The position numbers were made by a program, and so were the translations under genes. A stretch of DNA of 64,000 bases, taken from Owenia fusiformis (Eukaryota; Annelida; Polychaeta; Sabellida; Oweniidae). The DNA lies in assembly GCA_903813345.2 (NCBI GenBank), contig CAIIXF020000009.1, positions 37,815,759 through 37,879,758 on the forward strand, written 5' to 3'. The notes beneath the pieces are model-generated. The model was not told the origin of the DNA. It ran no database searches and saw only the letters and a list, made by a program, of their open reading frames with translations. Below are positions 14,801 through 56,800 of this stretch, in pieces (the stretch's first letter is position 1; the number at the start of each line of letters is the position of its first letter).

Positions 14801-17800
14801 TAATAATAGGGTTAATAAATAAAAAGTACTTGTCTTTGAGCTGTGATCCATAGGGGGTCTCCCCCCTCCCACCAGTAAGGTTCTTTAGATTCAGGGTTAG
14901 CTGCTAGGAGAAAGGTCGTCCCATATATTGGGTCAAACATCCAATTCTCAACCATACCATGTGACTCACTATAGAGACCTTAAAAAATATTAGACATTTA
15001 AAGTGGTAATCATATGAGATCAAGGTTGGAGGTCATGAATGAGAACATAATACTCACTATAAAGACCTTAAAGGATATTAGACATTTAAAGTGGTAATCA
15101 TATGAGATCAAGATTGGAGGTCATGAATGAGAACATAATACTCACTATAGAGACCTTAAAGGATATTAGACATTTAAAGTAGTAATCATATGAGATCAAG
15201 ATTGGAGGTCATGAATGAGAACATAATACTCACTATAGAGACCTTAAAGGATATTAGACATTTAAAGTGGTAATCATATGAGATCAAGGTTGGAGGTCAT
15301 GAATGAGAACATAATACTCACTATAGAGACCTTAAAGGATATTAGACATTTAAAGTGGTAATCATATGAGATCAAGGTTGGAGGTCATGAATGAGAACAT
15401 AATACTCACTATAGAGACCTTAAAGGATATTAGACATTTAAAGTGGTAATCATATGAGATCAAGATTGGAGGTCATGAATGAGAACATAATACTCACTAT
15501 AGAGACCTTAAAGGATATTAGACATTTAAAGTGGTAATCATATGAGATCAAGGTTGGAGGTCATGAATGAGAACATAATACTCACTATAGAGACCTTAAA
15601 GGATCTTAGACATTTAAAATGGTAATCATATGAGATCAAGATTGGAGGTCATGAATGAGAACATAATACTCACTATAAAGACCTTAAAGGATCTTAGACA
15701 TTTAAAGTGGTAATCATATGAGATCAAGGTTGGAGGTCATGAATGAGAACATAATACTCACTATAGAGACCTTAAAGGATCGTAGACATTTAAAATGGTA
15801 ATCATATGAGATCAAGATTGGAGGTCATGAATGAGAACATAATACTCACTATAGAGACCTTAAAGGATCTTAGACATTTAAAGTGGTAATCATATGAGAT
15901 CATGATTGGAGGTCATGAATGAGAACATAATACTCACAATAAAGACCTTAAAGGATATTAGACATTTAAAGTGGTAATCATATGAGATCATGATTGGAGG
16001 TCATGAATGAGAACATAATACTCACTATAGAGACCTTAAAGGATATTAGACATTTAAAGTGGTAATCATATGAGATCAAGATTGGAGGTCATGAATGAGA
16101 ACATAATACTCACTATAAAGACCTAAAAGGATATTAGACATTTAAAGTGGTAATCATATAAGATCACAATTGGAGGTCATGAATGAGAACATAATACTCA
16201 CTATAAAGACCTTAAAGGATCTTAGACATTTAAAGTGGTAATCATATGAGATCACGATTGGAGGTCATGAATGAGAACATAATACTCACTATAGAGACCT
16301 TAAAGGATATTAGACATTTAAAGTGGTAATCATATGAGTTCACGATTGGAGGTCATGAATGAGAACATAATACTCACTATAGAGACCTTAAAGGATATTA
16401 GACATTTAAAGTGGTAATCATATAAGATCAGGATTGGAGGTCATGAATGAGAATATAATACTCACTATAGAGACCTTAAAGGATATTAGACATTTAAAGT
16501 GGTAATCATATGAGATCATGATTGAGGTCATGAATGAGAACATAATACTCACTATAGAGACCTTAAAGGATATTAGACATTTAAAGTGGTAATCATATGA
16601 GATCAAGGTTGGAGGTAATGAATGAGAACATAATACTCACTATAGAGACCTTAAAGGATCTTAGACATTTAAAATGGTAATCATATGAGATCAAGGTTGG
16701 AGGTCATGAATGAGAACATAATACTCACTATAGAGACCTTAAAGGATATTAGACATTTAAAGTGGTAATCATATGAGATCAAGATTGGAGGTCATGAATG
16801 AGAATATAATACTCACTATAGAGACCTTAAAGGATCCTAGACATTTAAAGTGGTAATCATATGAGATCAAGATTGGAGGTCATGAATGAGAATATAATAC
16901 TCACTATAGAGACCTTAAAGGATCCTAGACATTTAAAGTGGTAATCATATGAGATCACGATTGGAGGTCATGAATGAGAACATAATACTCACTATAGAGA
17001 CCTTAAAGGATATTCAACATTTAAAGTGGTAATCATATGAGATCAGGATTGGAGGTCATGAATGAGAACATAATACTCACTATAGAGACCTTAAAGGATA
17101 TTAGACATTTAAAGTGGAAATCATATGAGATCAAGATTTGAGGTCATGAATGAGAACATAATACTCACTATAGCGACCTTAAAGGATATTAGACATTTAA
17201 AGTGGTAATCATATGAGATCACGATTGGAGGTCATGAATGAGAATATAATACTCACTATAGAGACCTTAAAGGATATTAGACATTTAAAGTGGTAATCAT
17301 ATGAGATCAAGGTTGGAGGTCATGAATGAGAACATAATACTCACTATAGAGACCCTAAAGGATATTTGACATTTAAAGTGGTAATCATATAAGATCACGA
17401 TTGGAGGTCATGAATGAGAACATAATACTCACTATAAAGACCTTAATGGATCTTAGACATTTATAGTGGTAATCATATGAGATCACGATTGGAGGTCATG
17501 AATGAGAACATAATACTCACTATAAAGACCTTAAAGGATATTAGACATTTAAAGTGGTAATCATATGAGATCACGATTGGAGGTCATGAATGAGAACATA
17601 ATAATGAAGAAGGTCGTAGTCAAGAAGGAAATCAAGATTATAAATGAGACAAATAGTCTTGATCATTTTCTTTTATGCTCTTACTGTTTTAGACACATTT
17701 GTTGGTGAAGATCACTGTCAATGCTTTTAGAATTCCTTCAAAATAGCTGTCACTTTTATAGTGGAAATCTCTCATGATCTACTGAAATCTCTGCACTTGT

Positions 17801-23800: not shown

Positions 23801-26800
23801 TTTGAGCTGTGATCCATAATGGGTCTCCCCCATTCCACCAATACGATTCCCTTGATTCAAGGTTTTTTAAAAGCAGAAAGGATGTTTCATGTTTTGGATC
23901 GAACATATAGTTCCCAACCATGCCATGCGACTCACTATAGAGACCTACAATTACCATGAGAGACTAATAATGGATGTATTATTACTATTTATGATAAAAA
24001 TGTAATAATAACATACTTGCAGAAAGCTCATGTTATATTGCAATGATGTTATCTATTTTTTGCCTCACACAGCTTCTTCCCTTTATCCATTTTACTTTAG
24101 TCATTAGTCATTAATAAGATATAAATTCACATACCTGTCATGAGGGTGTAGTGATTTGGAATTGAGAATGTTGGGTAGATTGGTTGAAGATAATCTGCTT
24201 CTACTCCATTTTTCAAAACATGCTTAAAACCTTTAAGATCTTTCATTGTTACCCCATGCTCACTAGCAACTTTCAAATAATCGCTACGGAAACCATCCAG
24301 AAGTATAGTAATAAGAGCATGTTTTGGTTTCTTTGCAGGTTTTCCAGAAACAAAATTTAGTTGGAAAAAAACAAATGCGAAAAATATGCAACTTGAAAGC
24401 TTCATACTGCTAGTGAATATTGAAATACTCTAGAATTATTACATTTAAGTTATGGAGCTTAATTCATTTGTGTAAATATTTTTAACAGTTGTGTTTAAGT
24501 TGTAGTGATTCATGTAATCACTTATCTCGTAGTTACAATATAGCAATAAAAAGTATATTAACACTTGATTTACCACACTGATTTCCTGTATTTTACCTGT
24601 AAAAGGCACTTATTGTTTCTTCAAACTACCTGTATACCTCTACATGACCACTCATTCAAAATGGCAGCTATATTCAATAGAAATGTAATTTTTGATACCT
24701 TGGAGACAAGAGGAGGGCAATCCCTTAAGTTCAAAGATGACCATAACTTGAATGGAAATTTATTTAGTGATGACGATCATCACTCATTGGTTAAATGAAA
24801 TGAAAATGAAACGGCAGATTCAAATTTTTGTAAAAATGTTTCAAATATTATAATCTTAATTTCTGGCATACTAACTTATATTATAAGTAGTGATTTCATG
24901 TAAGGAATATGTTTACATCGATTAAAACATCACATCAATGCACAGTATTCAGAAACTTAAGATGGTGGAAATCAAACAAAGGTGGTTAGCAAGAGAGGCA
25001 ATTTTGAGGTCATTTCTGAGCCCTGGTCAAGAAAATGGCGCATCAGATTTTCTTCAAATTCGTACACATGTTACAGCTTACTAAGTTCTTCAGCTAATTA
25101 ACCTTTTGGTGCCAATCTTGTTTTCTGGCAGATATTGTGACGTTTTTCGATAAATATTAATGATTGCCTTTCCAGATTTGAACACATGTTAGAGTATACT
25201 AGTTTCAATAATTCATTAACACTTTTTGTTACTTGGTGGAGTGATTCTGTTTATGTCATGTACCTTGTTTACCCAGTATTGGCCAGTAATGTGTCTCAGT
25301 CATGTTATGTGTGCTAAATTCCACGATCTGTTACCATACATAATAGGCACTGTTTATATCGCTATTAACCACAAACAGAATTAAATTGATAAAAATTCAA
25401 TCTATCAAAATTAAACAAGATACCGGAGACATTTTTGCACATTTGTAAAATACCTCCCAAGAAGTGATATTTTAGTATGTCCTTCATAGCGGTTGGCATT
25501 TAATCCTCTGTAAAAATTATTTTGTTTCACACTGTTTGCAATAACCTAAGAACTTTTATTTGGTTGATGCTATTTACTGTAAATATACACATGTCATAAC
25601 TATCAACAGTAGCATTAATATAAGGAGTAGTATTAGTTATAACTAAAGCAGTTTAGGTAACATCAGCTTGGCTTGAATGAATGACTATGGAATGGATTTC
25701 AAATAGCTACTCCAGCTGTCATTTTTACTTGAAGAAGTTTTTTATGTTCTGTGACAGACATGGATATTATCATTTTATCTAACATATTCATTTTTTCTTC
25801 TGATCCCTGTCATCTTACTGTTCAGTTTTTGCCTTCAGTCTTTTTTAGGTTCTGTTTTCATCACTACCGCCTCATGTTGTTTTGATCATATATCTTTGTC
25901 TATATCATCCTATTAGTATCTATTTTAGGTTCTGTTTTCATCACTTCTGCCTCATGTTGTTTTGATCATATATCTTTGTCTATATCATTCTATTAGTATA
26001 GTTAGTATCTTCTGATCCCTGTCATCTTACTGTTCAGTTTTGCCTTCAGTCTAATTTAGGTTCTGTTTTCATCACTTCTGCCTCATGTTGTTTTGATCAT
26101 ATATCTTTGTCTATATCATTCTATTAGTATAGTAAGTATCTTCTGATCCCTGTCATCTTACTGTTCAGTTTTGCCTTCAGTCTAATTTAGGTTCTGTTTT
26201 CATCACTTCTGCCTCATGTTGTTTTGATCATATATCTTTGTGTATATCATTCTATTAGTATAGTTAGTATCTTCTGATCCCTGTCATCTTACTGTTCAGT
26301 TTTGCCTTCAGTCTAATTTAGGTTCTGTTTTCATCACTTCTGCCTCATGTTGTTTTGATCATATATCTTTGTGTATATCATTCTATTAGTATAGTTAGTA
26401 TCTTCTAATCCCTGTCTTCTTACTGTTCAGTTTTTCCTTTCAGTCTAGAGTCTATATGATCATATATCACATTGATGCTCTGGGGCAAGGTAAAAGCATA
26501 TTTTTGAAAACAGGCCCAAGTACAAAACACCAGTACCAAAATCCCAATCAAGCCTATATTGTAAACAACATTCCTTGCAGCTGTCGCATTATCAATTACA
26601 ATGAAAAAGATCGTGGCTGTTATTAAAGATGCTAATCCACCGTAGATTCCCCACATCACAAATCCTAAGAATACAGCTATCATGCCAATGACCGCATGTT
26701 TTATGCTTGGCGTTTTCACGAATTAATCTGTAAAGGAAGATGGAATGTTCATAATTGAAATGTGTTAAAGGGAAATGGGGGTCTTAACTATCATGTTTAA

Positions 26801-29800: not shown

Positions 29801-32800
29801 GCGTATTCTTCCTTCATGCCCGTTCCACAGACACGGCTTTTACTAATTTTTATGTTTGAATCGGAATAAATAATGATAGGCCATTCAATATGGTGAAATT
29901 CAGTACTCGGTTCGTGCTTTGTACAACATTCTGTCCAACTCGTGCTGAATTTCACCATATTGAATGGCCTATCATTATTTATTCCTTAATCAAAACCTGG
30001 TATAGTTTTCTCCTGATTACGGTTGTAGATTATTATTGTGCTTTATGAAAAATGGTGTCAGCTTTGCACATTGGATATTGTCCCTTTGATACTCAAATGG
30101 ACTTTTAGACTGGTTTTTTTCTGTCCCACATCATTTGTTCTTCAACATGTATTACTGCAAATTTAATTTTAGATACTGGGTTGCATGTATTGAATTATGA
30201 TGTAACATGCAGCAAAAAGCATGTGCCTATATAAAAATAAATTATTTGATAAAGGTGTATATATTTCATCTCAATCCTGCAACCATATAATATATGCAAC
30301 ACTGCTGTTTTAATATGACCCTTAATAATCCAATTAAAGTGTACAAAATCTTTTACCCTTTGCATTCGTTTGACTTCACTTCTTAAAAGAGAGCTTCGTC
30401 TTCACTCTTTCAAACTAAAATAAACCTGTGAACTCACCGCGCCTTCTGGCGTCATCGTTGAGCCCGGAATTGACCAATGACATGCACATATTTAATTTGA
30501 ACGCAATTGGCGTATGTTTCTTCAAACTCGCTGATTGGTAGAAGAAAGGTCAGCGCGTAGGTCAGAAGTGATTACCTGCGTGGGGGTGGGGCTACTTAAC
30601 TGTAATATGGTCTCTACTAGGCAGAGTGTAGTTTAACTAGACTCTGCACGCAGGCTAAAAATCTTTACATGAACATGTAATGATGTTATTTCAAAATGCT
30701 ATCAACATTGCTCCATGTGCCATTGTGTGGTGATGGTTGTAGCTCCAGTACATGACACATAAGTTGGTAAAGATCTACTGCACTCACAGGTCCATGCTTA
30801 AACCTCCTCTTGAAACCTGGAAGTGGACATTGGGTTTTTGTTTTATCAGAGGTCCTATTATGAGGTCCTATTGGGTTATCATTGATTTCCCATTTGCTTC
30901 AACATAAAACATGACATAGTTGCATATCATATAATGTATGGATAGTGTGTCTATTATTGTCAGAGGCCAATGTCACCTAATATAGCATACAGCTCGAAAG
31001 CTTCATAGTGATCAACTGAACACCTTTTTAGCTCACATATGTGAGGCTCTAGTTATTCCCCACTAGTTGATATTTAGTTTTGAATTTTGGAAATAATTCA
31101 TATAATTCTGATTTTATCTTTAAAAATTTTAAATGTCATGTGGATTTAAATCATACTCTCATCACATGTAATTAAAAATATTGCATTATGTTGTCTGAAT
31201 TTGTGACATAATCTATATAATTCTGATACAAATCTTTTAAAATTTTAAACGTCATGTGCATTTACGACCTTGCTCTTGACATGTTTTTATATATTGTTTT
31301 ATGTTGTGTTAGTAATAGTATTTTTTAGATCACAAGTATGAGCTATTATTATTGTTTACTTGTCTGTCTGTCCATCCGTCTGTCTGTCTTTTTAGTAGTA
31401 CATTTTAATCCTTCAAGACAATGCCAATGTTAATTCTTTGCCATATATCTATCTCTTCTCCTTGGTGTATTCATATCATTGATTTGCACTAGCGGTAACA
31501 TCCTCCCAGTTGTTGATTTTGTTACTCATGTGAATGTGAACATTTTTACCATTTCCCATCACAAAAACAAATGTCCACAAGTCTATTGCATGATTTTAGG
31601 AAATTGGTAAGATTTATTATGATTACATTAATTAATTTCCAGGTGCTTGGGAAGCTCTTTAAGATAGACTACGACAATATACATGAAGATGAGATGGATG
31701 ATTTGAGGCAACAAAGAAAAACTGCTAATAAAAAGGTATTCTATCTAGTACACCTTAACTTTTTCTCAACATTTTTGTCTTATACCTATTCTGTTAAAGT
31801 CTCTTGCAAACTATGTATAGTGATTTGCCATCTATCAGAGAGTTTTGTAAAAGCGCTTCAATCAAACTTCTTTGATTTTCATAATAAAAACCTCATCACA
31901 CACAAATGTACCTAGAAACCAAGATGTCAGTCCATTGCCTATTCCATCTGACATCTATTTAACAATAATCATCTAAGAAAATTCAAATTGAGTAACAAAC
32001 AAGATGTTGAAGATGTGGCCTATTAATACTTAATTTAATACTACGTTTAGCTACGTTTAGCACTGTTGATTGAGGAGATAATTTTTATTATGAGTTTTAA
32101 AATAGTGAGAAAACGAGAGAGGATTGCTAAACATTTATTTATTTAACCTAGTCTTGTCTAATGTTTTTCCTGCACTTCAAAAATGCTATATTTGTCCTTA
32201 TCGCTCATGAGCAGGTGGGTGGGTGGATGCCATTTATGCACATTTTGTTTGCTGTAGCAAGAAGACTTCATCCTCTTAAATTCTTAATGTGCCATTTTGC
32301 TGTATGCTGTACTATGTGCAATATTTATCACTTGATTGATACCTTCATTGAACATTTTAATAAATACATGTGCATACACCACTAATGAGATATAATTGTC
32401 ATGATGGTGGATTGCCAGACTTACTTGAAATTAGTACACATATTAGAAGGCACCAAAGTTTATTTTGGGATTTGGGTGTAACCTTTTTGAGTGGTTTCAT
32501 AGCAGCCATCATAGAAAATGGATAAATCTTGTCATCTCCATTTCTGGAAAACTGCTCATTTGACTTTCTTCAAATTTTACCAAGTTCTACAGCTGATTAA
32601 ATTTTAGGTGGGCATCTTGTTTTCTGTTAGGCTGTATTGAATTTTTGTATTTTGCTTATTTATGTTGTCTTTCTTTTTGCAGGATAAAGAATACAAGAAA
32701 AGTGTGCTTTTACCTACAAAACCACCCATCCCAAGAAGTGGAAGAAAACCTCAAGGTGAGTGAGCTTTGGATAATTATTTTATGGTGTCAGGTGTGGCAT

Positions 32801-35800
32801 ATAAACACAATGGTGTCAGGTGTGGCAAATAAAGTCAATGGTGTCAGGTGTGGCAAATATACTCAATTGTGTCAGGTGTGGCAAATAGACTCAATGGTGT
32901 CAGGTTTGGCAAATAGACTCAATGGTGTCAGGTATGGCAAATAGACTCAATGGTGTCAGGTATGGCGAATAGACTCAATTGTGTCAGGTATGGCAAATGG
33001 ACTCAATGGTGTCAGGTGTAGCAAATAGACTCAGTGGTGTCAGGTGTAGCAAAAAGACTCAATAACGCAGATGCGAGTAAGTAGTTACCAGTTTCACCAC
33101 CAGGTGGCTCGTTCGGGTCAGATAGCATGGCGGGTATAGTAGAATGTTCCCTTTAACTTAAATTACATCTGTTTTAGTGGTTCAATTTTCATATAACCCT
33201 TCTGTATCTAATTGTTATGTAAATCAAAATATGTCCAGTAAAAGAAAATGTTATCTGTTCAATACAAGAAAAGATATTTCACTTTTTGTGATTTTGTAAC
33301 ATGGGGTCTATGGGGAATCAACCCGAGCTAGAAGTCACATTTTCAAAAAAAAATTAATTTTCAAAGTTGATCAACAATTTTCGAAACCATATTTCTAGAC
33401 GTACTTTTACATGTAGATTTCAAATATGACATCACTTTGACTGAATTTTGAATAGTTAATGACGTAAATCAAGATTTTTTCTACTCGCATCTAGTTTATT
33501 GTGTCAGATGTGGCAAATAGACTCAATGGTGTCAGGTGTGGCAAATAGACTCAATGGTGTCAGGTGTAACAAGTAGACTCAATGGTGTCAGGTGTAGCAA
33601 ATAGACCCAATGGGGTCAGGTGTACAAATAGACTCAATGGTGGTCAAAGGTTTGGCAAATAGACTCAATAGAGGCCCAAGCTGAGGATCTGAGAGTGAGC
33701 TCATCAAAATGGCATAATAGATCAGTTGTAATTTAAAATTTCCTATTCCTAGTGAAAAAATCAGCTGGTCTCTATCAAAAGCAACCAGCGGACCAGCCTT
33801 CAAAGAACCCATGCAATTACCCAGGGTGCATTCACCAACATTCTTTGCTGCCAGAATTCTTAAATCCATTGTTGTAACCATGGAAATAATGACATAATTG
33901 AGTAAGCATTCTTTAAGAACTCATCTGGTGGTGCACCCATGAGATAAATAAGTTCTAAGATCTTTTATATAGGCTCGGGTGGAAATGACCCAAGTCTCAT
34001 CTTTATCCAATCATATATTTATATGCATAGAGGCTAAACGTTACACATATTTCAATTTAAAAGATGCATAAATACATATGATTGGGATGGAATCATGTAT
34101 TGTAGGATTAAACGATTGATGCATTCAATACCTGTTAGATTAAGCTAAATCTAATCAGATTAATGAATAACAGCCCAGTCACATTTGTCGTACGGCGGCC
34201 ATACGTCGACCGCAGATCAATTAAATCAGTGTATTTCTGCGGCAAGCGTAGGAAAACTACGCTCGCCTTGTGGTCTCCGTACGGCGTATCCAGTTTTTTA
34301 CAGGCCGCAGGGTCGCCATAGAAATTATAACTCGGAGTGATAATATTTGTTCATTTCTGCGGTGCCCGTAGAAATCAACTGGCTCATCAAGATTAAATCA
34401 TTATTTCTCAATGTTTCATGAACACTTTTAATTTGATATTACATCCTAGCACGATAGAATAACTTTTATAAATTGTCCCGATGTGAATAAAATGAAAATA
34501 AGCATTATTTATCAACAGAAATTTAAAATTAGCTGTGCGGCTGCCGTGGGAAATGTGACTGCAAAAGTATGAGAGCGTAGAAATTCTACGGCGAGCGTAA
34601 AAAAGCTACTGACCGCAGAAATGATAGACCGCACGGCGGCTGTAGGAAATGTGGCTGGGGTGTAAAATACTGTAAAATAAATAATGGTCAGCTGATTTAC
34701 TCCCCAGAGCTAACTATATAAAAACTGAACAATAATTGTAAGATTTTGCTGAGTGTGAAACTATATTTATGTTTATTATGTATATGTTATAGGAATAGCG
34801 TAAAGTTTTGAATATAATGTCAGTGTATACTTATTTCTGCTGCTTTATGCCTAATTGGACCATTGCACAGTATTGATTGGTCTAAAGTATATTTATCAAG
34901 CATTATTTATTGTTTCTCTGAATGCGACAGAATGTTACGTCATATTTTGGTAGGATACACTATGTGTTTAACTTTGACGGAGAGCAATAATAAGAATGTT
35001 TATGTTCAATCCTAAACCCTTTGCAATCTTGTAATGTTGTCATAGTTGAAAGAATAGATGACTCAATGATGAAATAACTCCCTTATTTCAAAATAAGAGG
35101 ATTTGTCTCATTCATTACTCATTTAACTTATCTCAATGCAACTTTGAACACAAGTCATGAACGGAAAGGTCTAATACAACGATTCTGTGTACACAAAACA
35201 CTGTTTAATTTTGGCATAAAGTAAATTGGCAATCAGGCTCAGACTGTACTGTAGATATTGTGATTTTTCAAGTAGATAGATTTTCAATTAATGAAATTGT
35301 AGTGTTCCCCAATCCAAATTAAGTTATAGATGATACATGATTTGAGTAAATTAATTGTATTAATTATTTTCAGTAAATGAGTACTGTACTTCTAATATTT
35401 GTAAGTAGAATCATTGCATCTGATTCATTATCTTTTGATAGCGAGACTATAGCTCAGAGTTGGAATATCATATGACTGTTATAGTCTGTTCTTTCAATAG
35501 AATCAGTCTCTTTTACTTACGGAATCATAAAACATCTTGTCCCTTTTATCAATAACACCTCTTTGGAGGTGCATTGTTTCATCAGCTCCAATATTCTCAT
35601 TTATGGGCTGAATTGGCTCAATAGCTCCTGGACCGTCGTCATATTTTGGCGTACTGCTCACACTCGATCTATCTATATTTTCATCAGGACTTTCCGATTT
35701 ACAGCTAGGTGAGAATTCCTTCAGCAAGCCATACTGCGCATTTATGTCCATATCTCTCGCAAGCAAGAGCATGATGATGAAAAGAATAAAATAGAAAGCA

Positions 35801-41800: not shown

Positions 41801-44800
41801 TATAAATAGAGTTACATCAATAATGAAAATATAATTACACATGATAAAATCTAACTTCTGAATATTAGATAAATCAGTTTTTTGATTGTTTGCTTTGATT
41901 CTTTAAAGAACAATATACCTATAAGTTACTTGGGAGGATATATTTATTTGCCACCTGCATATGCCCCGTATCTAATAAAACAACACTGCCATATATTGAG
42001 TATCAATGATTTTGAAGGTTATTTTAACACATGAAAATACTGATTCTTTAATGAGATATAACAGCAATTGATTTACAGAACAACATTTGCATTCTTTAAC
42101 TGGCAAACTCCAAGTTGTCACTCTCAAGCAATTATATTGGGATTAGTTTTACAGAACACGGATAAGTGTTATATTTATTTGACAGTTCCATTAGTTTCCC
42201 AATAATAAATGGCCACGTTTTAATTCCTTTCCTGTTAGGCATATTTTTGTTTATCCATAACTGCTCTCTGATTAGTTTTTCATGTTCTCTACTTCTGCGT
42301 ATTCTTCTCGTTATTTTATTCAGTTGTTACATTTGATCTGATTTCTATTAATGCAGCATGGTATTTGATAGCCTATGAATGGCCTCACGTTTCAATGACA
42401 TTACTATTTCTTATGTAATTCAGAATTGTATTATTGTTGTTGATTTTTTATGAATGTGTTATTGTGGCCTTCTGATTGAAACGATCATAATGCTTTCAGG
42501 TCGTATTAACCTCAAGATAAATCAGAATGAGTCATATTGATCCTTAATCAACTCAATTCAGAGTCATCTCATGGTCTGCAACTTAATTGCAACTATGGTC
42601 TGCAACTTAATTGCAACTGTGGTCTGCAACTTAATTGCAACTATGGTCTGCAACTTAATTGCAACTATGGTCTTTAACTTAATTGAAACTATGGTCTGCA
42701 ACTTAATTGCAACTATGGTCTCCAACTTAATTACAACTATGGTCTGCAACTTAATTGCAACTATCGTCTGCAACTTAATTGCAACTATGGTCTGCAACTT
42801 AATTGCAACTATGGTCTCCAACTTAATTGCAACTATGGTCTGCAACTTAATTGCAATTATGGTCTGCAACTTAATTGCAACTATGGTCTCCAACTTAATT
42901 GCAATTATGGTCTGCAACTTAATTGCAACTATGGTCTTTAACTTAATTGCAATTATGGTCTGCAACGTAATTGCAACTATGGTCTGCAACTTAATTGCAA
43001 CTATGGTCTCCAACTTAATTGCAACTATGGTCTGCAACTTAATTGCAACTATGGTCTCCAACTTAATTGAAACTATGGTCTGCAACGTAATTGCAACTAT
43101 GGTCTGCAACTTAATTGCAACTATGGTCTCCAACTTAATTGCAATTATGGTCTGCAACTTTATTGCAACTATGGTCTTTAACTTAATTGAAACTATGGTC
43201 TGCAACGTAATTGCAACTATGGTCTGCAACTTAATTGCAACTAAGGTCTGCAACTTAATTGCAACTATGGTCTGCAACTTAATTGCAACTATGGTCTGCA
43301 ACTTAATTGCAACTATGGTCTCCAACTTAATTGCAACTATGGTCTGCAACTTAATTGCAACTATGGTCTCCAACTTAATTGCAACTATGGTCTGCAACTT
43401 AATTGCAACTATGGTCTGCAACTTAATTGCAACTATGGTCTCCAACTTAATTGCAATTATGGTCTGCAACTTAATTGCAACTATGGTCTGTAACTTGATT
43501 GCAACTAAGGTCTGCAACTAAGGTCTGCAACTTAATTGCAACTATGGTCTGCAACTTAATTGCAACTATGGTCTCCAACTTAATTTCAACAATGGTCTGC
43601 AACTTAATTGCAACTATGGTCTCCAACTTAATTGCAACTATGGTCTCCAACTTAATTGCAATTATGGTCTGCAACTTAATTGCAATTATGGTCTGCAACT
43701 TAATTGCAACTATGGTCTCCAACTTAATTGCAATTATGGTCTGCAACTTAATTGCAACTATGGTCTCCAACTTAATTGCAATTATGGTCTGCAACTTAAT
43801 TGCAACTATGGTCTCCAACTTAATTGCAATTATGGTCTGCAACTTAATTGCAACTATGGTCTGCAACTTAATTGCAACTATGGTCTGCAACTTAATTGCA
43901 ACTATGGTCTCCAATTTATTTGCAATTATGGTCTTCAACTTAATCGCAATTATGGTCTGCAACTTAATTGCAACTATGGTCTTCAACTTAATTGCAATGA
44001 TGGTCTGCAACTTAATTGCAACTATGGTCTGCAACTTAATTGCAACTATGGTCTTCAACTTAATTGCAACTATGGTCTGCAACTTAATTGCAACTATGGT
44101 CTCCAACTTAATTGCAATTATGGTCTGCAACTTAATTGCAACTATGGTCTGCAACTTAATTGCAACCATGGTCTGAAACTTAATTGCAACTATGGTCTGC
44201 AACTTAATTGATTAACCAATTTGCAACTAAGGTCTGCAACTTAGTTTTAACCAACTTAATTGCAACTATGATCTGCTACTTAGTTTTAACCAACTTAATT
44301 GCAACTATGGTCTGCAACTGAACTGGGACTATGGTCTGCAACTTAATTGCAACCATTGTCTGCAACTTAACTGCGACTATGGTCTGCAATTTCTTTCAAT
44401 CTAATTGCTGTAATATATTGAGTAGTAAAATTGTTGTTCAGTAAAGTTGGAAAACACTTGCCACTGACACTCCCACTTCATAATCTGTTGGTGCATAAAG
44501 TCCCTGCTTCACAAAGCCTTATTAAATGTATTACCCCTAAGAGTAAAGTTGTGGGGATTAAGAAAAACCATCTGTAGCACAAGAACTCAATGACTGCTCA
44601 ATTCCAAATGGATGCTGTTTTTGTAAAAAATACAATTTTGGAAAAAAATATGCCACTTTACCAACTTTGATAATATTTTTAAGAATGTTTCAGAAATGCA
44701 CAGATGCATCCCTGATTATCTCAAAACTTCCATGGTCTTTCGATATTTTATGATCTTTCTTTTTCATTTTGAGTAGAAAGTCTTGTCACTTGTTACTTTG

Positions 44801-47800
44801 AAAGAATCCTACTTAACAAATAAATAAGGGGTCATGGTTTGTTGGTTTGTTGGTTTGTTTCTATTCATGACAGAAGTCAACAGTCAATGCCCACACGGTC
44901 ATAAATTGCCTTTTGTCAAGTAACTCATATAAAGTGGAGTTCTCCACTTATTACAAGTTATTGGGATATAAAATCTTGTTGGAAATATTGACTTAATCCT
45001 CTTGTTCTCTTTATTGAATCAATATGAAGTATTTTATGATATTTGATAAGAAAGGGTCACAAGATCCTCCCTCAGAAATTTCCAGTCTGCTAGCTTTATT
45101 ATTTCCCTTAATTAGATTGATTGCTTTGTACCTGGTTGTTAAGATATTCTTCAATGTGTTTTTACAATACAGTCTAAGGCACAGTTCTCAAAAATGTGAA
45201 TTGGCTCAATGTACAACAGAATTTAGTGCCATCTTATTTTTGTGGCTTTGTGTTAGACTGTATAACATAACACCAATTTGATGACTTAACACGAAACATG
45301 ACATTTATTTACTCCTAGTGTGACTCAGATCAATAAAACTGTTTTTTCTCTTTATTTTTTTCACCAAAAGAATCTACATTTCAAATATACAACATTTTAT
45401 AATAATCTATTATGTATGATATTTATTCCAGATTAATTGCATTGCATTACATCACCTTAACAAACAAAACAACCACCAATTTGAAAGTTTGCATTTATCT
45501 CTTTTTTCACATCTACAAATTTTTATGTAAATGTGTTTTAGGCCCCAGAGCAAGACCAACAAGCAGATTAACCACAGCTGGCAAAACACGAAAACGCAGT
45601 GCATCAAGTAGTCCTATAGGAGGCAGACGCAAACCAACAGGCCCATGTAAGTAGGAAAATCTAAAAAAGAATGGTCTTGTGACTTGTTAATTTTGCAATT
45701 AAACACCAACGGAAAGCTTAACCAATCAGATTGTTGTTCACTAGTGGAAATGTATTAATTAACCAATCAGAATACATTAATATTAATTAATTAACCAATC
45801 AGAATACTGAGAATTGATTAAAATCATGAAATAAACCATCTGCATCAGTAATGCTTAAATCAGATATCCATGTTTATATAACCAAGATTCAATTTTCATG
45901 AAATACAATTTAATTTAGATCCTCTCCATTTTATAGATGTCATATTATTGTGGTGTATACGTTTGGCAATACCCTACAGAGAAATAGTTGAAATAAATAT
46001 ATGATTCGATGCAGATAGGAGCTTCCATGGCCTTAATGAGAGTTTCAATACAAGATAAATGCCAAGTTCTTATTAACACATAATATTCAGTGAATGCTAT
46101 TTTGATTGGGAGCTAGATTTTTGTGACCATATTCTAATAGACTAGATGCGAGTAGAAATAATCTTGATTTACGTCATTCAAAATTCAGTCAAAGTGATGT
46201 CATATTTGAAATCTGCATGTAAAAGTACATCTAGAAATATAGTTTCGAAACTTGACTATTAACTTTGAAAATTTAATTTTTTTGAAAATGTGACTTCTTG
46301 TACGGGTTGATTCCCCATAGACCCCATGTTACAAAATCACAAAAAGTAAATTATCTTATCTTGTATTGGACAAATAACATTTTCTTTTACTGGACATATT
46401 TTAATTTGCATAACTATTAGATACATAAGGGTTATATGAAAATTGAACCACGCAAATAGATCTAATTTAAGTTAAAGGGAACTTTCTACTATACCCGCCA
46501 TGCTATCTCACCCGAACGAGCCATCTGGTGGTGAATCTGGTAACTACCTACTCGCATCTGCGTTATTGGGTAAGGCTAGATCAAAAGGATTAAAAAGTAT
46601 CTTTAACTTTAAGAGTGTTGAAGAATCTCTTAAAATATTCAAAACAATGAAAGATGAAGTTTTTCAATATTAATATATGTCATCATCCCTGCAGCCTGAT
46701 TATTTGCTAGCTAACTACACTGCCCTCGGACTGTTGAAGAATCTTTAAAGTAAAATGAAACCATTGTAAAGTGAAGTTTTCCATATCAGTATATGACATC
46801 ATCCCACCTTGAGTATTCATTGGCTAACTACACTGCCCTCTGACTCTTGTAAATGATTTTACTAATTTTGATAAGATCTTATATTAAATTTAGCTTTTAT
46901 GGCCTTTTATGACTTTCATTGTGGAAGAAAATAAGTTCTTTATATAGCCAGAAAATGACGTGTCAGTGTGATTGGATAAAGGCAACATCAAAAAATCACC
47001 TCCCATTCGAATAGAGTGAAAATGACATCAAGCTCTTGTTAAGGATAGATTTATCCCAATTTGATCTTTTTTTACATCAACCAATCTTCTTCATATTAAA
47101 GACAACTCAAGAAATTTCAAATCAATAAATAAAATGATTAAAATTTTTTTTTTAAATCACTAGACTAGGCTTTGAAATATTATTAGGCATTGTCACATTT
47201 TTTGTCATGATACCAATGTATCGAAGAAAAGTTGTATGATCCTAATGAAAAAGTCTTTCTTGTAATGTATACCATCAACATTTAAATCTGGAACACCATG
47301 ACTTATATCTTCTAAACTATAAAATGGTACAAATCTTCCAGAATTATCATCAAAATATTTTGTCAGTACTTCTTTCACATTTTCATAGAGTTCAGAGTTT
47401 CTTGTTTGCGATATCATGTTGTGATATTCGATTGGTTGATTTGTTTGGAGAATATAAGTTGGCTGAAACCATATGATCTTCGTGTCAGGATGTTCTTTTG
47501 TACTTTGGTTTACTATATCCATAAACCATGTCAGTGTTCGCTTAAAGCTATTCACATTGTGCCTTTTAATGTCATGGAAGTTTGCAACAAGGATGATGAG
47601 TTGAGGGTACTGGGAGGATGTTTTTGTCGCAAGGTACTCATTAAATATGAACTCCTGAGTTGTTAGGGATGATCCACAGCCAACACCCCATGATTCAAAC
47701 TGTGTTAAGTTTGGTTTACAAGTCTTGGTTCTTGTTTCCCTACGTGTTGTAACTGACGTATCCATGAAGTAGTCCATTGAAAGGAATTCGGTTGTAATTT

Positions 47801-50800
47801 TGGGGGATGCCCTTGATGTATTACAACTATATGTAATTGAATGACAACCTCCACAGCCGCGCTCTCGTGTCACTACATCAGGAATTTCAGCGAAATACTC
47901 CCGATCTGGAAGAAATGGTTTTGCATCAGTTAAGCCCTCCAATTTTTCAGCTTTACAATTTCTGCGTCCATAGATTCCATCAAGCTGTATCTGAATAGCA
48001 TCATGATAGCGATATGCTGTCGAGTCACCTAGAACTAAAATACTGGTCAATTTGTTTCTTTCAATGAACCTCATTTGGTCAGACTTATCTGATTTGGGTA
48101 AAATACAACCATCAGGTTGCCAAGCATTCTCTGACCATTTCCCTTTCGAGTGATATTTCCCAGTCTTTGCAAAGTAGCCTCTCAGATAATCAAAACTACA
48201 TTTGGGTGTTATTATTTGTTGATCGTTGAAGATCTTGTAGAAAGTAATCACAAAAATCATTACTAATATTCCTGGAAATATTCTCCTCAGTATTGTACTT
48301 GTACAGTGTATATTCTCCATTGTAACGTCAAGTTTTAACACTTTTAACATCCTGGTTCTGGTGCATTCTTTTATCATATAGCTATATATTGAAATTGGTT
48401 AAAACACCTGCCATTCATCAGATCAAATATTAAGTTATTAAAATGTGTGTAGTGACCTAATTTGTTTAATATCTAAATTCTTATAGTAATACTCATTTTA
48501 TAATGCTACCATTAATATCAGAATGCTGCTGTATGCCATTATGCCTAAATAATAGATAAAGAAATATATGCTTGGCTTGACTCCATTAAATTTATAAGGT
48601 AATTAACAATCTCAACTTGACATTTAGAGTACAATGTTTTGTTTTTACAGGTGTAAAAGATGCAACTAAAACTTAAATTGCAGCTGAGTCTCCAGATTCT
48701 TCAAATGGTTAATTGGGTTAAACTGTTAATTAAGCAAATAAAGAAAGTCATGTTGAAGATCATTTCACTTCTTAAATCAGACACATTAGTTGCTGCTATA
48801 TCTATGTCAATAATCTACAAAAGGCTAATAAGCCCATATTAAGCAGATATATGATTTAACAGCGATAGAATTTGAATAGAATATAATTTAAAACCTTAAC
48901 ATTTAAAAATAGATCCATGGTTTGCAATGAATTTTAAAATTGAAAGGAACCTTCCTGGTTGGCCCCTGTACCCCCTTAGGAGGTCCCTTCATGTTGAAAT
49001 ACCCTGGGGCGACTGTCAGGCTACAGCATTGACATCTCCCCTCCTTACCAGTAGTGCAGGCTTGTTGCTGTGCACTGGGGACCTTAAAACATAGATCTAT
49101 ATTAAAAACACACCTATTTAATTGCAGTTATTGACATAGGCATAGTATGATGATTTAAAACTACTTAGACTGTCACAGTCTAAGATGTCACCAGGTAGAG
49201 TGTTCCATTTAGCTATTGTCCTAGGGAAATAGCTAAATTTGTATATATCCATTCTAGTTGATGGTTGTATGAACTTAGAAGGATGATACAACCTAGTGTT
49301 GGTATTTATCTGTTGGCGGAAGTATGGAGGCACGTCGATGGCTGCTAAATTCTGCTTTCCTTTGTAAAAAAGGAAAACTCTAGCAGCCTCTCGACGCTCC
49401 TTCAGTGGCTCCCACTGTAGGTCTTGAAGAGCTTTGGTGACGCAGCCTGGTTTCCTTGAGTGACATTTGGTCACAAACATGGCTGCTCTTCTCTGTACCT
49501 GTTCCAACATATCAATATATTTTTGTCGGTATGGAATGGATCCCATGCCGAACTGGCATATTCTAAATTAGGCCGGACTAGTGACTTATACGCCTGAGCC
49601 TTCACTTTTTCAGGGCATTGATGGAGGTTGCGCCTGAGGAATCCAAGCACCTTATTGGCTTTGGATACAACAGTTTGAATATGTGTAGTCCAGCGTAAGT
49701 TATTTGTGATGTCAATACCTAGGTATGGGATGTGTGTTACCGACTTAAGGTTTTCCCCTAGCATGGTGTAATTGTGAATGGGATTAACCTTTGTGAATAT
49801 TTAGCACATAGCATTTTGATGGATGGAATTTCATTTGCCATATTGAACCCAGGAGACCAGTTTATCAAGATTCTCCTGTAGTGTTAATGCATCTTGCTTG
49901 CTTTCGACTGTCATGAATAAAAGGCTGTGTTAGCTAAAAGGCTGTCGTCAGTTGGTGCTATATACAGGTTAGACCCCTTCCATGTGCTTGAAAGCCCATG
50001 TGGCATGATTATTTTCAAGTGTTTTTGAAAGAGCAATATTTTTCGTCAGTAATGCGTGAGACAAACTGCCGTTTCGCATTTTGATGGGATATGATTAGTT
50101 TGATCTTCCAAAGGAAGTCATGTGATTTCCACAACGAACAAGCTGCCTGTGAAATTGTTTTGAATTTTTTTTCAAATTTTATTAAAAAAATTAGAAGAAA
50201 GTTTGATAACTTTTGAAACTTACCATTTTAGATTTAAAACTCACACAATTATTAGCTGTTACATTGATCTCTATCTGTGTATACTCGATTTGATAATTCA
50301 CTGCACGTATAGGCTTCAAATCAGCTATAAATGTGTAAGTGTGATTGGATAAAGGCAACATCAAAGAATCACCTCCCATTCGAAGAGTAAAAATGAAATC
50401 AAGCTCTTGCAAAGGATAGATTTATCCCAATTTGATCTTTTTTACATCAACCAATCTTCTTCATATTCAAGACAACTTTCAAGAAATTTCAAATCAATGA
50501 CCAGTCATATTGAATTTCAAAATAGGCTTTGAAATATTTGAAATATTAGGCATAGTCACATTTTTGTAATGATATCAATGTATCGAAGAAAAGTTGTATG
50601 ATCCTAATGTAAAAGTCTTTCTTGTAATGTATACCATCAACATTTAAATCTGGAACACCATGACTTATATCTTCTAAACTATAAAATGGTAGAAATCTTC
50701 CAGAATTATCTTCAAAATATTTTGTCAATACTTCTTTCACATTTTCATAGAGTTCAGAGTTTCTTGCTTGCGACGTCATGTTATGATATTCGATTGGTTG

Positions 50801-53800
50801 ATTTTTTTTTAGAATATAAGTCGGCTGAAACCAGATGATCTTCGTGTCAGGATATTCTTTTGTACTTTGGTTAACTATATCCATAAACCATGTCAGTGTT
50901 CGCTTAAAGCTATCCACATTGTGCCTTTTAATGTCATGGAAGTTTGCAACAAGGATGATGAGTTGAGGGTACTGGGAGGATGTCTTTGTTGCAAGGTACT
51001 CATTAAATATAAACTCCTGAGTTGTTAAGGATGATCCACAGCCAACACCCCATGATTCAAACTGTGTTAAGTTTGGTTTACAAGTCTTGGTTCTCGTCTC
51101 CCTACGTGTTGTAACTGATGTATCCATGAAGTAGTCCATTGAAAGGAATTCTGTTGTAATTTTGGGGAATGCCCTTGATGTATTACAACTATATGTAATT
51201 GAATGACAACCTCCACAGCCGCGCTCTCGTGTCACTACATCAGGAATTTCATCAAAATACTCCCGATCTGGAAAAAATTGTTTTGCATCAGTTAAGCCCT
51301 CCAATTTTTCAGCTTTACAATTTCTGCGTCCATAGATTCCATCAAGCTGTATTTGAATAGCATCATGATAGCGATATGCTGTCGAGTCACCTAGAACTAA
51401 AATACTGGTCAATTTGTTTCTTTCGATGAACTTCATTTGGTCAGACTTATCTGATTTGGGTAAAATGCAACCATCAGGTTGCCAAGCATTTTCTGACCAT
51501 TTCCCTTTCGAGGGATATTTCCCAGTCTTTGCAAAGTAGCCTCTCAAATAATCAAAATTACATTTGGGTGTTATTTTTTGTTGATCATTGAAGATCTTGT
51601 AGAAAGTCATCATAAAAATCACTATTAATATTCCTGGAAATATTCTCCTCACTATTGTACTTGTACAGTGTATATTCTCCATTCTAATGTTAAGTTTTAA
51701 CACTTTTAACATCCTGCTTCTCAAACATTCTTATATCATATAGGCTCTTCATACCAATTAGGTTAAATTTAATTTAAATTGGTTAAAACATCTGCCATTA
51801 ATCAGATCAAATATTAAGTTATTAAAATGTGTTTAGTGACCTAATTTATTTGATATCTAAATACTTATATTATTACTAATTTTATAATGCTATCGTTAAT
51901 ATTAGAATGCTGCTGTATGCAATTATGCCTAAATAATAGATAAAGAAAAAACTGCTTGGCTTGACACCATTAAATTTATAAGGTAATCTTACAATCTCAA
52001 CTTGACATTTAGAGTACAATGTTTTGTTTTTACAGGTGTAAAGAGTCTTCAGATTTTTCAAACTGTTAATTGGGTTAAACTGTTAATTAAGCAAACAAAG
52101 AAAGTCATGTTGAAGATCATTTCACTTCTTAAATCAGATACATTAGTAGCTGCTGTCAGTATTATTATAGAAATGGTGTATCAGCCAAATCCAATAGCAC
52201 CACCAAATTAACAGAAGTTACAACATTTACATGCCTTGAAAACCACAATATGTGTATTACCTTTTCTTTCAGTTCATGTTGGAACTGATGAGTTTCTCCC
52301 TGAATTACTAGAAGAGTTCCCATTCTTGTACCTCTCTCCTGAGACCCTGCATGAACTGTGGAAACAGCATGCTGGCCAGGTGAAGACCATCAGCAAAGTA
52401 CAGCAGGAGGTTAGACGGAGGAAAAGTAAAGCTCAAATTGAGGTAGGTACTAACCATGAAAAGTAAAGCTCAAATTGAGGAAGGCACTAACCACTGTGGT
52501 TTTACCATGAAAAGTAAAGCTCAAATTGAGGTAGGCACTAACCACTGTGGTCATACCATGAAAAGTAAAGCTCAAATTGAGGTAGGTACTAACCACTGTG
52601 GTTTTACCATGAAAAGTAAAGCTCAAATTGAGGTAGGCACTAATCACTGTGGTTTTACCATGAAAAGTAAAGCTCAAATTGAGGTAGGCACTAACCACTG
52701 TGGTTTTACATGAAAAGTAAAGCTCAAATTTAGGTAGGCACTAACCACTGTGGTGATACCATGAAAACTAAAGCTCAAATTGAGGTAGGCACTAATCACT
52801 GTGGTTTTACCATGAAAAGTAAAGCTCAAATTTAGGTAGGCACTAACCACTGTGGTCATACCATGAAAAGTAAAGCTCAAATTGAGGTAGGCACTAACCA
52901 TGAAAAGTAAAGCTCTAATTGAGGTAGGCACTAACCATGAAAAGAAAAGCTCAAATTGAGGTAGGCACTAACCACTGTGGTCATACCATGAAAAGTAAAG
53001 CTCAAATTGAGGTAGGCACTAACCATGAAAAGTAAAGCTCAAATTTAGGTAGGCACTAACCACTGTGGTTTTACCATGAAAAGTAAAGCTCAAATTGAGG
53101 TAGGCACTAACCACTGTGGTCATACCATGAAAAGTAAAGCTCAAATTGAGGTAGGCACTAACCATGAAAAGTAAAGCACAAAGGAGGAGGGAAATTAGCG
53201 CAACAGATTTTGTACAGTCATATGTTGGATTTTGGCCATTTTCTGAGGATTTAAACAATTGCATATGTTAGGCCAATGCATTACCTCCAGGAAAATCACT
53301 TCTAGAGATGATGAAATAATTTCGACTTTGAGACAGGTTAGAGCAAACAACCCACCCACATGATTTTTTCTGAAATGTTTTCCTATTTTTCGACCCCTTC
53401 CATCCCTGCTTTTTTAATTTTTCTTGCATCAATATGTTGTATTTTGACACATAGTTAACCACTTTAAAGGAACAAGTGATTCCTTCAGGGGTTTTAAAGA
53501 TACCCATTATGGGTGACCAAACTTAGCTGAAAGCAATGATTTTTCCTATGGGGAAATAACATGGGAAATATTGTTTTCCACTTTATCTAAATGGAATCAT
53601 TAATTCCTTTTAAGGGATCAACTGTGTGTCAAAACGCAACATATTGATGCAAGAAAAATTAAAAAAGAAAGGATGGAAGGGGTTGAAAATCAGGAAAACA
53701 TTTCAGAAAAAACATGTGGGTGGGTTGTTTGCATCTACCCTGTCTCAAAGTCAAAATTATTTGATCATCTCTAGAAGTGATTTTCCTGGAGGTAAAACAT

Positions 53801-56800
53801 TCGCCTAACTTATGCACCTGTTTAAATCCCCAAGAAATGGCCGAAATCCAACATATGACTGTCCAAAATCTGTTGCGCTAACTTCCCTCCTCCTTTAGGT
53901 AGGTACTAACCACTGTGGTTTTACCATGAAAAGTAAAGCTCAAATTGAGGTAGGCACTAACCACTGTGGTCATACCATGAAAAGTAAAGCTCAAATTGAG
54001 GTAGGCACTAATCATGAAAAGTAAAGCTCAAATTGAGGTAGGCACTAACCATGAAAAGTAAAGCTCAAATTGAGGTAGGCACTAACCACTGTGGTTTTAC
54101 CATGAAAAGTAAAGCTCAAATTTAGGTAGGCACTAACCACTGTGGTTTTTACCATGAAAAGTAAAGCTCACATTGAGGTAGGCACTTACCACTGTGGTCA
54201 TACCATGAAAAGTAAAGCTCAAATCGAGGTAGGCACTAACCACTGTGGTCATACCATGAAAAGTAATGCTCAAATTGAGGTAGGCACTAACCACTGTGGT
54301 TTTACCATGAAAAGTAAAGCTCAAATTGAGGTAGGCACTAACCACTGTGGTCATACCATGAAAAGAAAAGCTCAAATTGAGGTAGGCACTAACCACTGTG
54401 GTCATACCATGAAAAGTAAAGCTCAAATTGAGGTAGGCACTAACCACTGTGGTCATACCATTAAAAGTAAAGCTCAAATTGAGGTAGGCACTAACCACTG
54501 TGGTCATACCATGAAAAGTAAAGCTCAAATTGAGGTAGGCACTAACCACTGTGGTCATACCATTAAAAGTAAAGCTCAAATTGAGGTAGGCACTTACCAC
54601 TGTGGTCATACCATGAAAAGAAAAGCTCAAATTGAGGTAGGCACTAACCACTGTGGTCATACCATGAAAAGAAAAGCTCAAATTGAGGTAGGCACTAACC
54701 ACTGTGGTCATACCATTAAAAGTAAAGCTCATATTGAGGTAGGCACTAACCACTGTGGTCATACCATTAAAAGTAAAGCTCAAATTGAGGTAGGCACTAA
54801 CCACTGTGGTCATACCATGAAAAGTAAAGCTCAAATTGAGGTAGGCACTAACCACTGTGGTCATACCATTAAAAGTAAAGCTCAAATTGAGGTAGGCACT
54901 TACCACTGTGGTCATACCATGAAAAGAAAAGCTCAAATTGAGGTAGGCACTAACCACTGTGGTCATACCATTAAAAGTAAAGCTCAAATTGAGGTAGGCA
55001 CTAACCACTGTGGTCATACCATGAAAAGTAAAGCTCAAATTGAGGTAGGCACTAACCACTGTGGTCATACCATTAAAAGTAAAGCTCAAATTGAGGTAGG
55101 CACTTACCACTGTGGTCATACCATGAAAAGAAAAGCTCAAATTGAGGTAGGCACTAACCACTGTGGTCATACCATGAAAAGAAAAGCTCAAATTGAGGTA
55201 GGCACTAACCACTGTGGTCATACCATTAAAAGTAAAGCTCATATTGAGGTAGGCACTAACCACTGTGGTCATACCATTAAAAGTAAAGCTCAAATTGAGG
55301 TAGGCACTAACCACTGTGGTCATACCATGAAAAGTAAAGCTCAAATTGAGGTAGGCACTAACCACTGTGGTCATACCATTAAAAGTAAAGCTCAAATTGA
55401 GGTAGGCACTTACCACTGTGGTCATACCATGAAAAGAAAAGCTCAAATTGAGGTAGGCACTAACCACTGTGGTCATACCATGAAAAGAAAAGCTCAAATT
55501 GAGGTAGGCACTAACCACTGTGGTCATACCATTAAAAGTAAAGCTCATATTGAGGTAGGCACTAACCACTGTGGTCATACCATTAAAAGTAAAGCTCAAA
55601 TTGAGGTAGGCACTAACCACTGTGTAATGGAAATCATCAACAGAACAATGAAGTCAATCTGTGTTTTATTTTTGTTCAAAAGAGTGCTTGGCTTTAATGT
55701 TCTATTATATTACTGATAGATACTGTGTTGTCCATGTACTAGTACCTCTCTGTGTAGTGTGTATTGGCAGAGATACATGAAAGAACATGGTCTGTGGTAT
55801 CAGTTGAAAAGAGAAACTGCATATTTACATATGAAAGATCAGTCATTACATCTGGAATTTCAGGAAAGAATATAATCAGTCATACAATAGTTGAGTAAAT
55901 TTAAGTAGCATCACAATGGAACCACGCAATGTGTTGTTTAATATCCCAACTTCCAAATATGATTTTTTTTTTTAAATTATGAACTTTATTTATTTAGATA
56001 ACATTGATAACATTCACACTTTACCTGACTTATTGCTATTCTAGATAGAGGAGGCTGAGCAGAGGCAGAATATTCTCGCAGACATAATGAAGAAAGAGAT
56101 GGCTCACAACAACAGAATGGTTTGTTCATTCAGATTTGTTACTTTCCTGTTTTCTATATTTGTTATCCCACAGCACAGGATTCAGCGTGCATTCTTAGAT
56201 ACTATGTTTCACTTCATATTTGATATTTATGTGCTAGAATTAGAAAATGTTTAAAAGATATCCTGTCTGCACCTATTTGAATGTTGCTCAAATTAGATTC
56301 ATATGATAAATTGAATTGATTGGACAAATGAATTTGTGTGTTTGTTTTACAGCGTGAAGCCAAGGACCGCAAAGCCCAACATCTTTCTGTGCAATCTCAG
56401 GTTCGAGAAAAGCGTCAACAGACTGCAAAATCAAAACGGTATTATGAGGAGTACCAAGTTAGAATGAGGTCTAAAATGTTGAAGAAAAGAACTCGCGAGG
56501 AAATGGTGAGATAAGTGTATATATTTTCTTAACATGACACTGATCACCCTATTTAAACAACTGGGTGGAACACCCCATTTGAAATTGATTATAACATGAA
56601 ATAAAATTGAGATATTCAAAATTCATATAAATAGATCAAGCATTGGATAATTTCTAATAGTATTCTTTGTTTATTCTGTTTTTGATTACAGATATTCAAG
56701 AAACTTTTCAAAGATGGGATCGAGATCCAAAAAGAGAGAATCAGGGATCTAAGAAAATATGCCAATGATCAGAGGCAGAGAAGGAACAACAAACAGCAAA

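Follow-up and report, generated by a model that had tools for sequence, protein, structure and literature searches.

Tandem repeats that extend over exon-intron boundaries form a named class, the mirages, described in genes of lancelets (PMC3087553, PMC3902484). According to the portions of these reports on which we draw, they are found in Adh3 and the globins BflGb6 and BflGb9 (PMC3087553), as well as in TnC and PGBD5 (PMC3902484). Reverse transcription PCR indicated that regular splicing is apparently undisturbed by mirages, which were put forward as a possible way of gaining introns (PMC3087553), and those of Adh and TnC are stated to generate no aberrant mRNAs (PMC3902484). In human duplicated genes, variable minisatellite-type repeats are known, some of them at exon-intron boundaries, and new introns were proposed there too (PMC2812944). 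Earthworm metallothionein genes contain minisatellites within intron 1 (PMC12783039). Here we describe a window of 64,000 nucleotides from the annelid Owenia fusiformis (contig CAIIXF020000009.1, positions 37,815,759 to 37,879,758 of the forward strand), in which a long minisatellite array lies over the donor edge of an exon. The gene carrying it is presumably CEP95-like and will be called so below; a Pfam search with it returned no match. Very probably, the array is a mirage-type exon-edge minisatellite, that is, an intronic array, tolerated by the gene, which arose by tandem duplication acting preferentially at exon edges.

The exon in question (VHVGTDEF..., 52273–52442, + strand) is an open frame between the acceptor TTTCAG and GAG|GTAGGT. 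Coding continuity places the predicted real donor, GTAGGT, at 52443–52448 (+ strand), with the GT at 52443, and the open frame ends at an in-frame TAA (52464–52466, + strand) that starts at intron base 22. The array covers this edge. Its unit, mostly 51 bp long, joins the terminal 22 nt of the exon to the donor and some 29 nt of intron, and the 37-bp units correspond to the 51-bp unit minus a 14-bp piece. Parsing into units gives 50 whole copies across 52421–55618, plus one split by an inserted element. The first block of the array (52421–53179, + strand) contains 16 whole copies, a mix of 51- and 37-bp units with one of 50 bp, and the left half of the split copy; the second block (53897–55623, + strand) contains its right half and 34 whole copies. 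The start of the next exon lies at 56045–56119 (+ strand), with an acceptor uncertain by about 6 nt.

The exon continues upstream from copy 1 alone, which is taken as the real exon end and donor. The other 49 whole copies are intronic and 48 of them keep the GT. Among the 50 whole copies, the donor nonamer is GAGGTAGGC in 43, TAGGTAGGC in four, GAGGTAGGT in two and GAGGAAGGC in one. One of the GAGGTAGGT donors is the real donor of copy 1 (GAG|GTAGGT) and the other belongs to one further whole copy, and the single GAGGAAGGC, in which the GT is lost, is carried by copy 2. Copy 2 (52458–52508), the sole GT-less decoy among the 49, is also the first decoy after the real donor; with one instance only, chance may account for this. 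The locus thus displays three hallmarks of mirages: the unit spans the exon-intron boundary, the copies are located on the intron side with the exon intact, and many of them keep the GT.

The array contains 24 unit types arranged in ordered blocks. In its 3' part, a higher-order repeat (54462–55583, + strand) is built of the types UCVLLW UCVL UCVLLW UCVLLW, with 6, 4, 6 and 6 units, respectively. We read these repeated six-unit blocks, one of them reduced to four, as recent block-wise expansion; as seen in one assembly, such expansions fit the allelic length instability and somatic variation expected of mirages. A two-unit query against the 498 Mb genome, bearing on whether the 51-bp unit also occurs elsewhere, a point raised in the original prediction, matched 48 places, all inside the CEP95-like array. 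The search skips very common words, so the finding of no unit outside the array is strong, not absolute. Given this confinement and the Tandem Repeats Finder (TRF) score of 2879 for the main block, the array is not a product of chance.

The element that splits the array (53180–53896, + strand) is a 717-bp near-palindrome resembling a miniature inverted-repeat transposable element, whose inverted arms measure 163 nt (91%) and 120 nt (88%). It belongs to a dispersed family, of which 40 places, including this one, were scored, with 95–100% identity and nearly all full length; a first look gave 2062 candidates in the genome. The element interrupts the array and is separate from its unit. By eye, the element ends are AAAGGAGG-like and CCTCCTTT in the four copies read, those of the CEP95-like array and of L002 to L004, with the copy in L003 one base off at one end. 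Comparison with neighbouring units, in the CEP95-like array and in the locus L004, suggests insertion at AAATT(T/G) with no obvious target duplication. A different element, with the ends CAGATGCG...CGCATCTAG, interrupts a 28-bp array of the CEP95-like gene at 33068–33500, and by eye a similar one is found at 1040–1440 of the sampled region L028, beside the donor array listed below. The original prediction, made from the letters of the window, had proposed about 45–50 copies of a CEP95 exon edge over 52273–55624, each with the donor GAG|GTAGGC, and a TAA about 25 bp past the normal donor that would block read-through. The exon, the array and its copy number hold, as does the donor for most copies; copy 1 carries GTAGGT, the stretch is not continuous, and the TAA is present and begins slightly earlier than proposed.

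It had also been claimed that two arrays in the window grew from exon edges, and this stands, the one intended besides the CEP95-like array presumably being that of an ENPP-like (phosphodiesterase) gene. This array (88 bp × 30, 14964–17603, − strand) has a unit comprising the acceptor AAG and the first ~14 nt of the exon. The exon itself, at approximately 14830–14980 (− strand, acceptor taken as real), is located at the 3' end of the array and begins GTCTCTATAGTGAGTCACATGG; its peptide, joined to the MTG of the upstream exon, matches PF01663 (5.7e-10). A paralogous exon near 23944 has a start identical to that of the ENPP-like exon and is without a TRF array. Most simply, therefore, the 88-bp array is younger than the ENPP-like paralogues.

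How common such arrays are was estimated in 200 regions around exons of three gene families, namely 100 kinase regions with 600-bp flanks, and 60 kinesin and 40 myosin regions with 400-bp flanks. The source matches, taken exon by exon, numbered 144 for protein kinase, 144 for kinesin and 92 for myosin head. In kinase sampling, full-length matches and near-duplicates were left out, and some regions contain more than one match. In some cases, neighbouring kinesin or myosin regions share 100–375 bases; no counted edge array was noticed in the overlaps. TRF was run on all 200 regions and arrays near exons were then read by eye. One kinesin region, L162, with an acceptor array of 159 bp × 18, was chosen after its repeats had been seen; it is thus an eleventh region outside the prevalence count and was kept for the excess test and the terminal-copy check. 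Edge arrays at matched exons are present in 10 of the remaining 199 regions, at 11 edges (kinase 4/100, kinesin 5/59, myosin 1/40). Donor arrays occur in L028 (71 bp), L053 (54 bp), L099 (80 bp), L133 (57 bp) and L158 (67 bp), and acceptor arrays in L028 (86 bp), L071 (51 bp), L130 (33 bp), L136 (110 bp), L138 (154 bp) and L203 (32 bp). Four further arrays (L023, L027, L109, L178) belong to adjacent exons within the flanks rather than to the sampled ones. The neighbouring-exon peptide of L178 matches Pfam myosin, those of L027 and L109 have no Pfam match, and that of L023 is too short for Pfam.

Several candidates did not survive inspection. L154 was dropped as an exon-overlapping array, the exon match having run into the intron, and L155, which starts at the donor and includes zero exon bases, was counted as non-edge. 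L087 was rejected as a repeated kinase exon: by eye it holds a tandem pair of diverged, complete kinase exons, possibly mutually exclusive. Two other regions deserve mention. Upstream of the myosin exon of L170, the unit of a 31-bp array (1–322) by eye resembles an internal piece of the exon (TATGCCAAYGARAGC) and may be what remains of an earlier, decayed duplication of that exon. Just past the kinase donor of L009, the unit of a 23-bp array (1–553) resembles the intron side of the donor (GTAAGTAATGAT), with no exon bases.

The sampled evidence for an excess of arrays at exon edges is good. Among arrays with a TRF score of at least 100 in both samples, L162 included, an exon edge is part of 15 of the 16 with units of at least 45 bp, edge membership being judged by eye, and of 2 of the 27 with shorter units (Fisher p 1.3e-8). 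TRF split the single array of L053 in two; with the pieces merged, the former count becomes 14/15. In a chance model where a unit-sized seed is placed at random, 1.6 edge arrays are expected among the 16 long-unit ones with two edges per locus (p 2e-15), or 3.2 with four edges (p 6e-11). The first sample alone contains five exon-overlapping arrays, versus 0.4–0.7 expected from array density and unit length in the flanks. Thus, the excess at exon edges that the original prediction had suggested looking for is seen, on the scale of 200 sampled regions assessed by eye.

The edge arrays examined share one arrangement. With the real copy defined as the one joined to the coding frame, we compared 14 arrays, namely the CEP95-like and ENPP-like ones, those of the ten counted regions (two in L028) and that of L162. 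The exon-joined copy is terminal in 14/14, being the 5'-most in the six donor arrays and the 3'-most in the eight acceptor arrays. Summed over the 14, the GT or AG is kept in 134/139 other matched copies, a figure that leans towards intact copies because those beyond the substitution limit were unmatched (in L130, 6 of ~13 were matched; in L136, the third, eroded copy was unmatched). In four arrays position alone identifies the real copy: L138 and L158 have copies that do not differ within the stretch tested, and the CEP95-like array and L099 each contain another copy identical to the real one.

This anatomy suggests a simple course of events. An initial tandem duplication would have involved a segment running from 22 nt before the exon end, through the donor, to ~29 nt into the intron. 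The copies would then have expanded block-wise into the intron, as through unequal exchange, and selection would preserve the copy farthest towards the exon as the real exon end, all that follows being intron. Splicing would pick the exon-proximal site, the exon being recognised as a unit (exon definition). Under exon definition, the 48 whole GT-bearing copies are expected to be tolerated decoys and the array to be near neutral. For the locus as a whole, we infer that the array is neutral, that mRNA is made with copy 1 and that the seed was a tandem duplication favouring exon-intron boundaries. Such arrays probably arise or persist preferentially at exon edges in O. fusiformis, at donors and acceptors alike; candidate causes of this preference are biased duplication, connected with transcription, splicing or the chromatin of exons, or some advantage of the arrays. 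The R-loop or spliceosome-associated breaks suggested in the original prediction are a conjecture of the same order. The broader proposition that tandem duplication has a mutational hot spot at exon-intron boundaries, with about one exon in 20 carrying a mirage array and thousands of arrays genome-wide, seems to us evenly balanced between true and false.

Alternatively, the array could work, with downstream donors adding in-frame segments of 17 aa or making a regulated, unproductive transcript subject to nonsense-mediated decay. Use as in-frame extra segments had been raised in the original prediction, given a unit that is a multiple of three with an open frame. This description is accurate for 54130–55716, which is one open frame, and fails upstream of it, where 37-, 50- and 52-bp units and the inserted element break the frame. 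A working array would also be in line with the retention of GT in 48 of the 49 whole decoys, 47 of which read GAG|GTAGGC or TAG|GTAGGC, and with boundary tandem repeats in human segmental duplications, which alter splicing (PMC2812944). However, any donor beyond copy 1 would include the TAA at 52464, the first block is a mix of 37- and 51-bp units cut off from the rest by the 717-bp element, and lancelet mirages are reported without aberrant mRNAs in the part of the source considered (PMC3902484). Because of the stop, the mixed unit lengths and the split, the in-frame coding option is very unlikely, and extra protein segments were rejected as the main function. A decay switch through array donors is possible; taken together, a function of either kind is improbable.

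Insertion of a mobile or satellite repeat at the exon edge is a different matter. The palindrome inside the array is indeed a dispersed element; however, it breaks up the array without forming its unit. The unit consists of the exon end and donor of the gene itself, and a search that skips very common words located it at no other site. With all 48 unit places within the CEP95-like array, we rejected a mobile satellite and regard this origin as highly improbable. An assembly artefact is hardly credible either: tandem arrays are hard to assemble and the exact copy number may be wrong, but the copies differ, with 24 unit types in ordered blocks and an insertion inside, and the same anatomy recurs in 13 further arrays at other exon edges. 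It is also conceivable that tandem duplications fall anywhere and those at edges are merely noticed. Short-unit arrays are common within introns (25/27), and the long-unit arrays of L004 and L068 are without recognisable exon sequence, as this would predict. By contrast, 15/16 long-unit arrays at edges versus 1.6–3.2 expected, and five versus 0.4–0.7 in the first sample, render the absence of a preference unlikely.

Interpretation of the array as a tolerated mirage has its own weak points. The donor of copy 1 was called real by coding continuity, so its use in mRNA is predicted from sequence, and no decisive microhomology was found at the seed of the first duplication. The sample covers three gene families with unequal rates, edge membership was assigned by eye, and three of the four neighbouring-exon cases (L023, L027, L109) are probable edges read from short frames. 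Long-unit arrays with no recognisable exon do exist, namely L068 (47–52 bp, near an exon) and L004 (112–268 bp), the latter locus having been taken for another reason and not selected for exons. Finally, a DEAD-helicase search with 52 matches revealed no regularly spaced exon pieces, an approach able to detect only arrays with long exon parts.

The window contains other arrays and genes. A third array with long units, of 131 bp and 80 bp (25839–26447, − strand), has a unit in which an open frame finishes (...RLKGKTEQ, followed by a TAA inside ACAGTAAGA), and hence lies on a coding edge, either a stop codon or a donor. Among the five arrays of the window with a TRF score of at least 100, a coding edge is thus found in 3/3 long-unit and 0/2 short-unit arrays. 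The 28-bp arrays (32782–33063, 33501–33669) were rejected as edge-derived, since their unit has no visible exon sequence, and so was the 24-bp array (42571–44389), also with no visible exon sequence in its unit. The 28-bp repeat begins at intron base 27 past a donor. Two similar single-exon open frames of ~395 aa (47205–48398 and 50546–51730, − strand), which we take to be NXPE-like, seem to lie within an intron of the CEP95-like gene; the latter frame has a GDSL-lipase match 28.1 bits over the cut-off. A duplicated stretch (48657 and 51987) is located beside both frames, as from a segmental duplication of ~3.3 kb.

Each array of this kind is a natural contest of near-identical splice sites differing mainly in position, and as such bears on exon versus intron definition. 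The edge excess calls for a cause, duplication bias or selection, and links to the origin of new introns. If the hot-spot proposition is true, it would imply a duplication process linked to transcription or splicing, yielding arrays of competing sites in which the exon-side copy survives, and mirages would recur across genomes instead of being a peculiarity of lancelets. Literature titles and abstract openings, with most subscription journals outside the coverage, contained no mention of minisatellites at exon edges as a feature of a whole genome or from annelids.

The closest relatives of the CEP95-like array are the lancelet mirages, which, in the published sections considered, likewise span donor or acceptor boundaries with units of 10–160 bp, keep many splice signals and exclude the boundary copy from homogenisation. 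Unlike these, the arrays described here come from the annelid lineage and reach 50 and 30 copies in the window, versus 3–6 for BflGb6; one has a transposon-like element inside, and their frequency was assessed over 200 regions instead of single genes. In keeping with an annelid, the genome has three matches to PF16915 (annelid erythrocruorin linker), the best at 38.1 bits against a cut-off of 27; a COX1 search of it returned none. Human variable internal tandem repeats (PMC2812944) are similar in being minisatellite-type, within genes and in part at boundaries. However, according to the material considered, about half of them are coding and the transcripts of recent paralogues are changed, whereas here the copies are intronic and the exon is intact. 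The earthworm metallothionein minisatellites (PMC12783039) share tandem units, block structure and annelid provenance; they differ in lying within the intron, with no exon or splice-site sequence described for the unit in the accessible part of that report. The intron-gain idea of Rogers, in which an AG/GT proto-splice site is duplicated (cited in PMC3087553), also derives extra splice-site pairs from duplication, whereas no new intron is demonstrated here. The arrays therefore represent a known kind, and good sampled evidence indicates what is new: their frequency in another lineage, the annelid O. fusiformis, and their concentration at exon edges.

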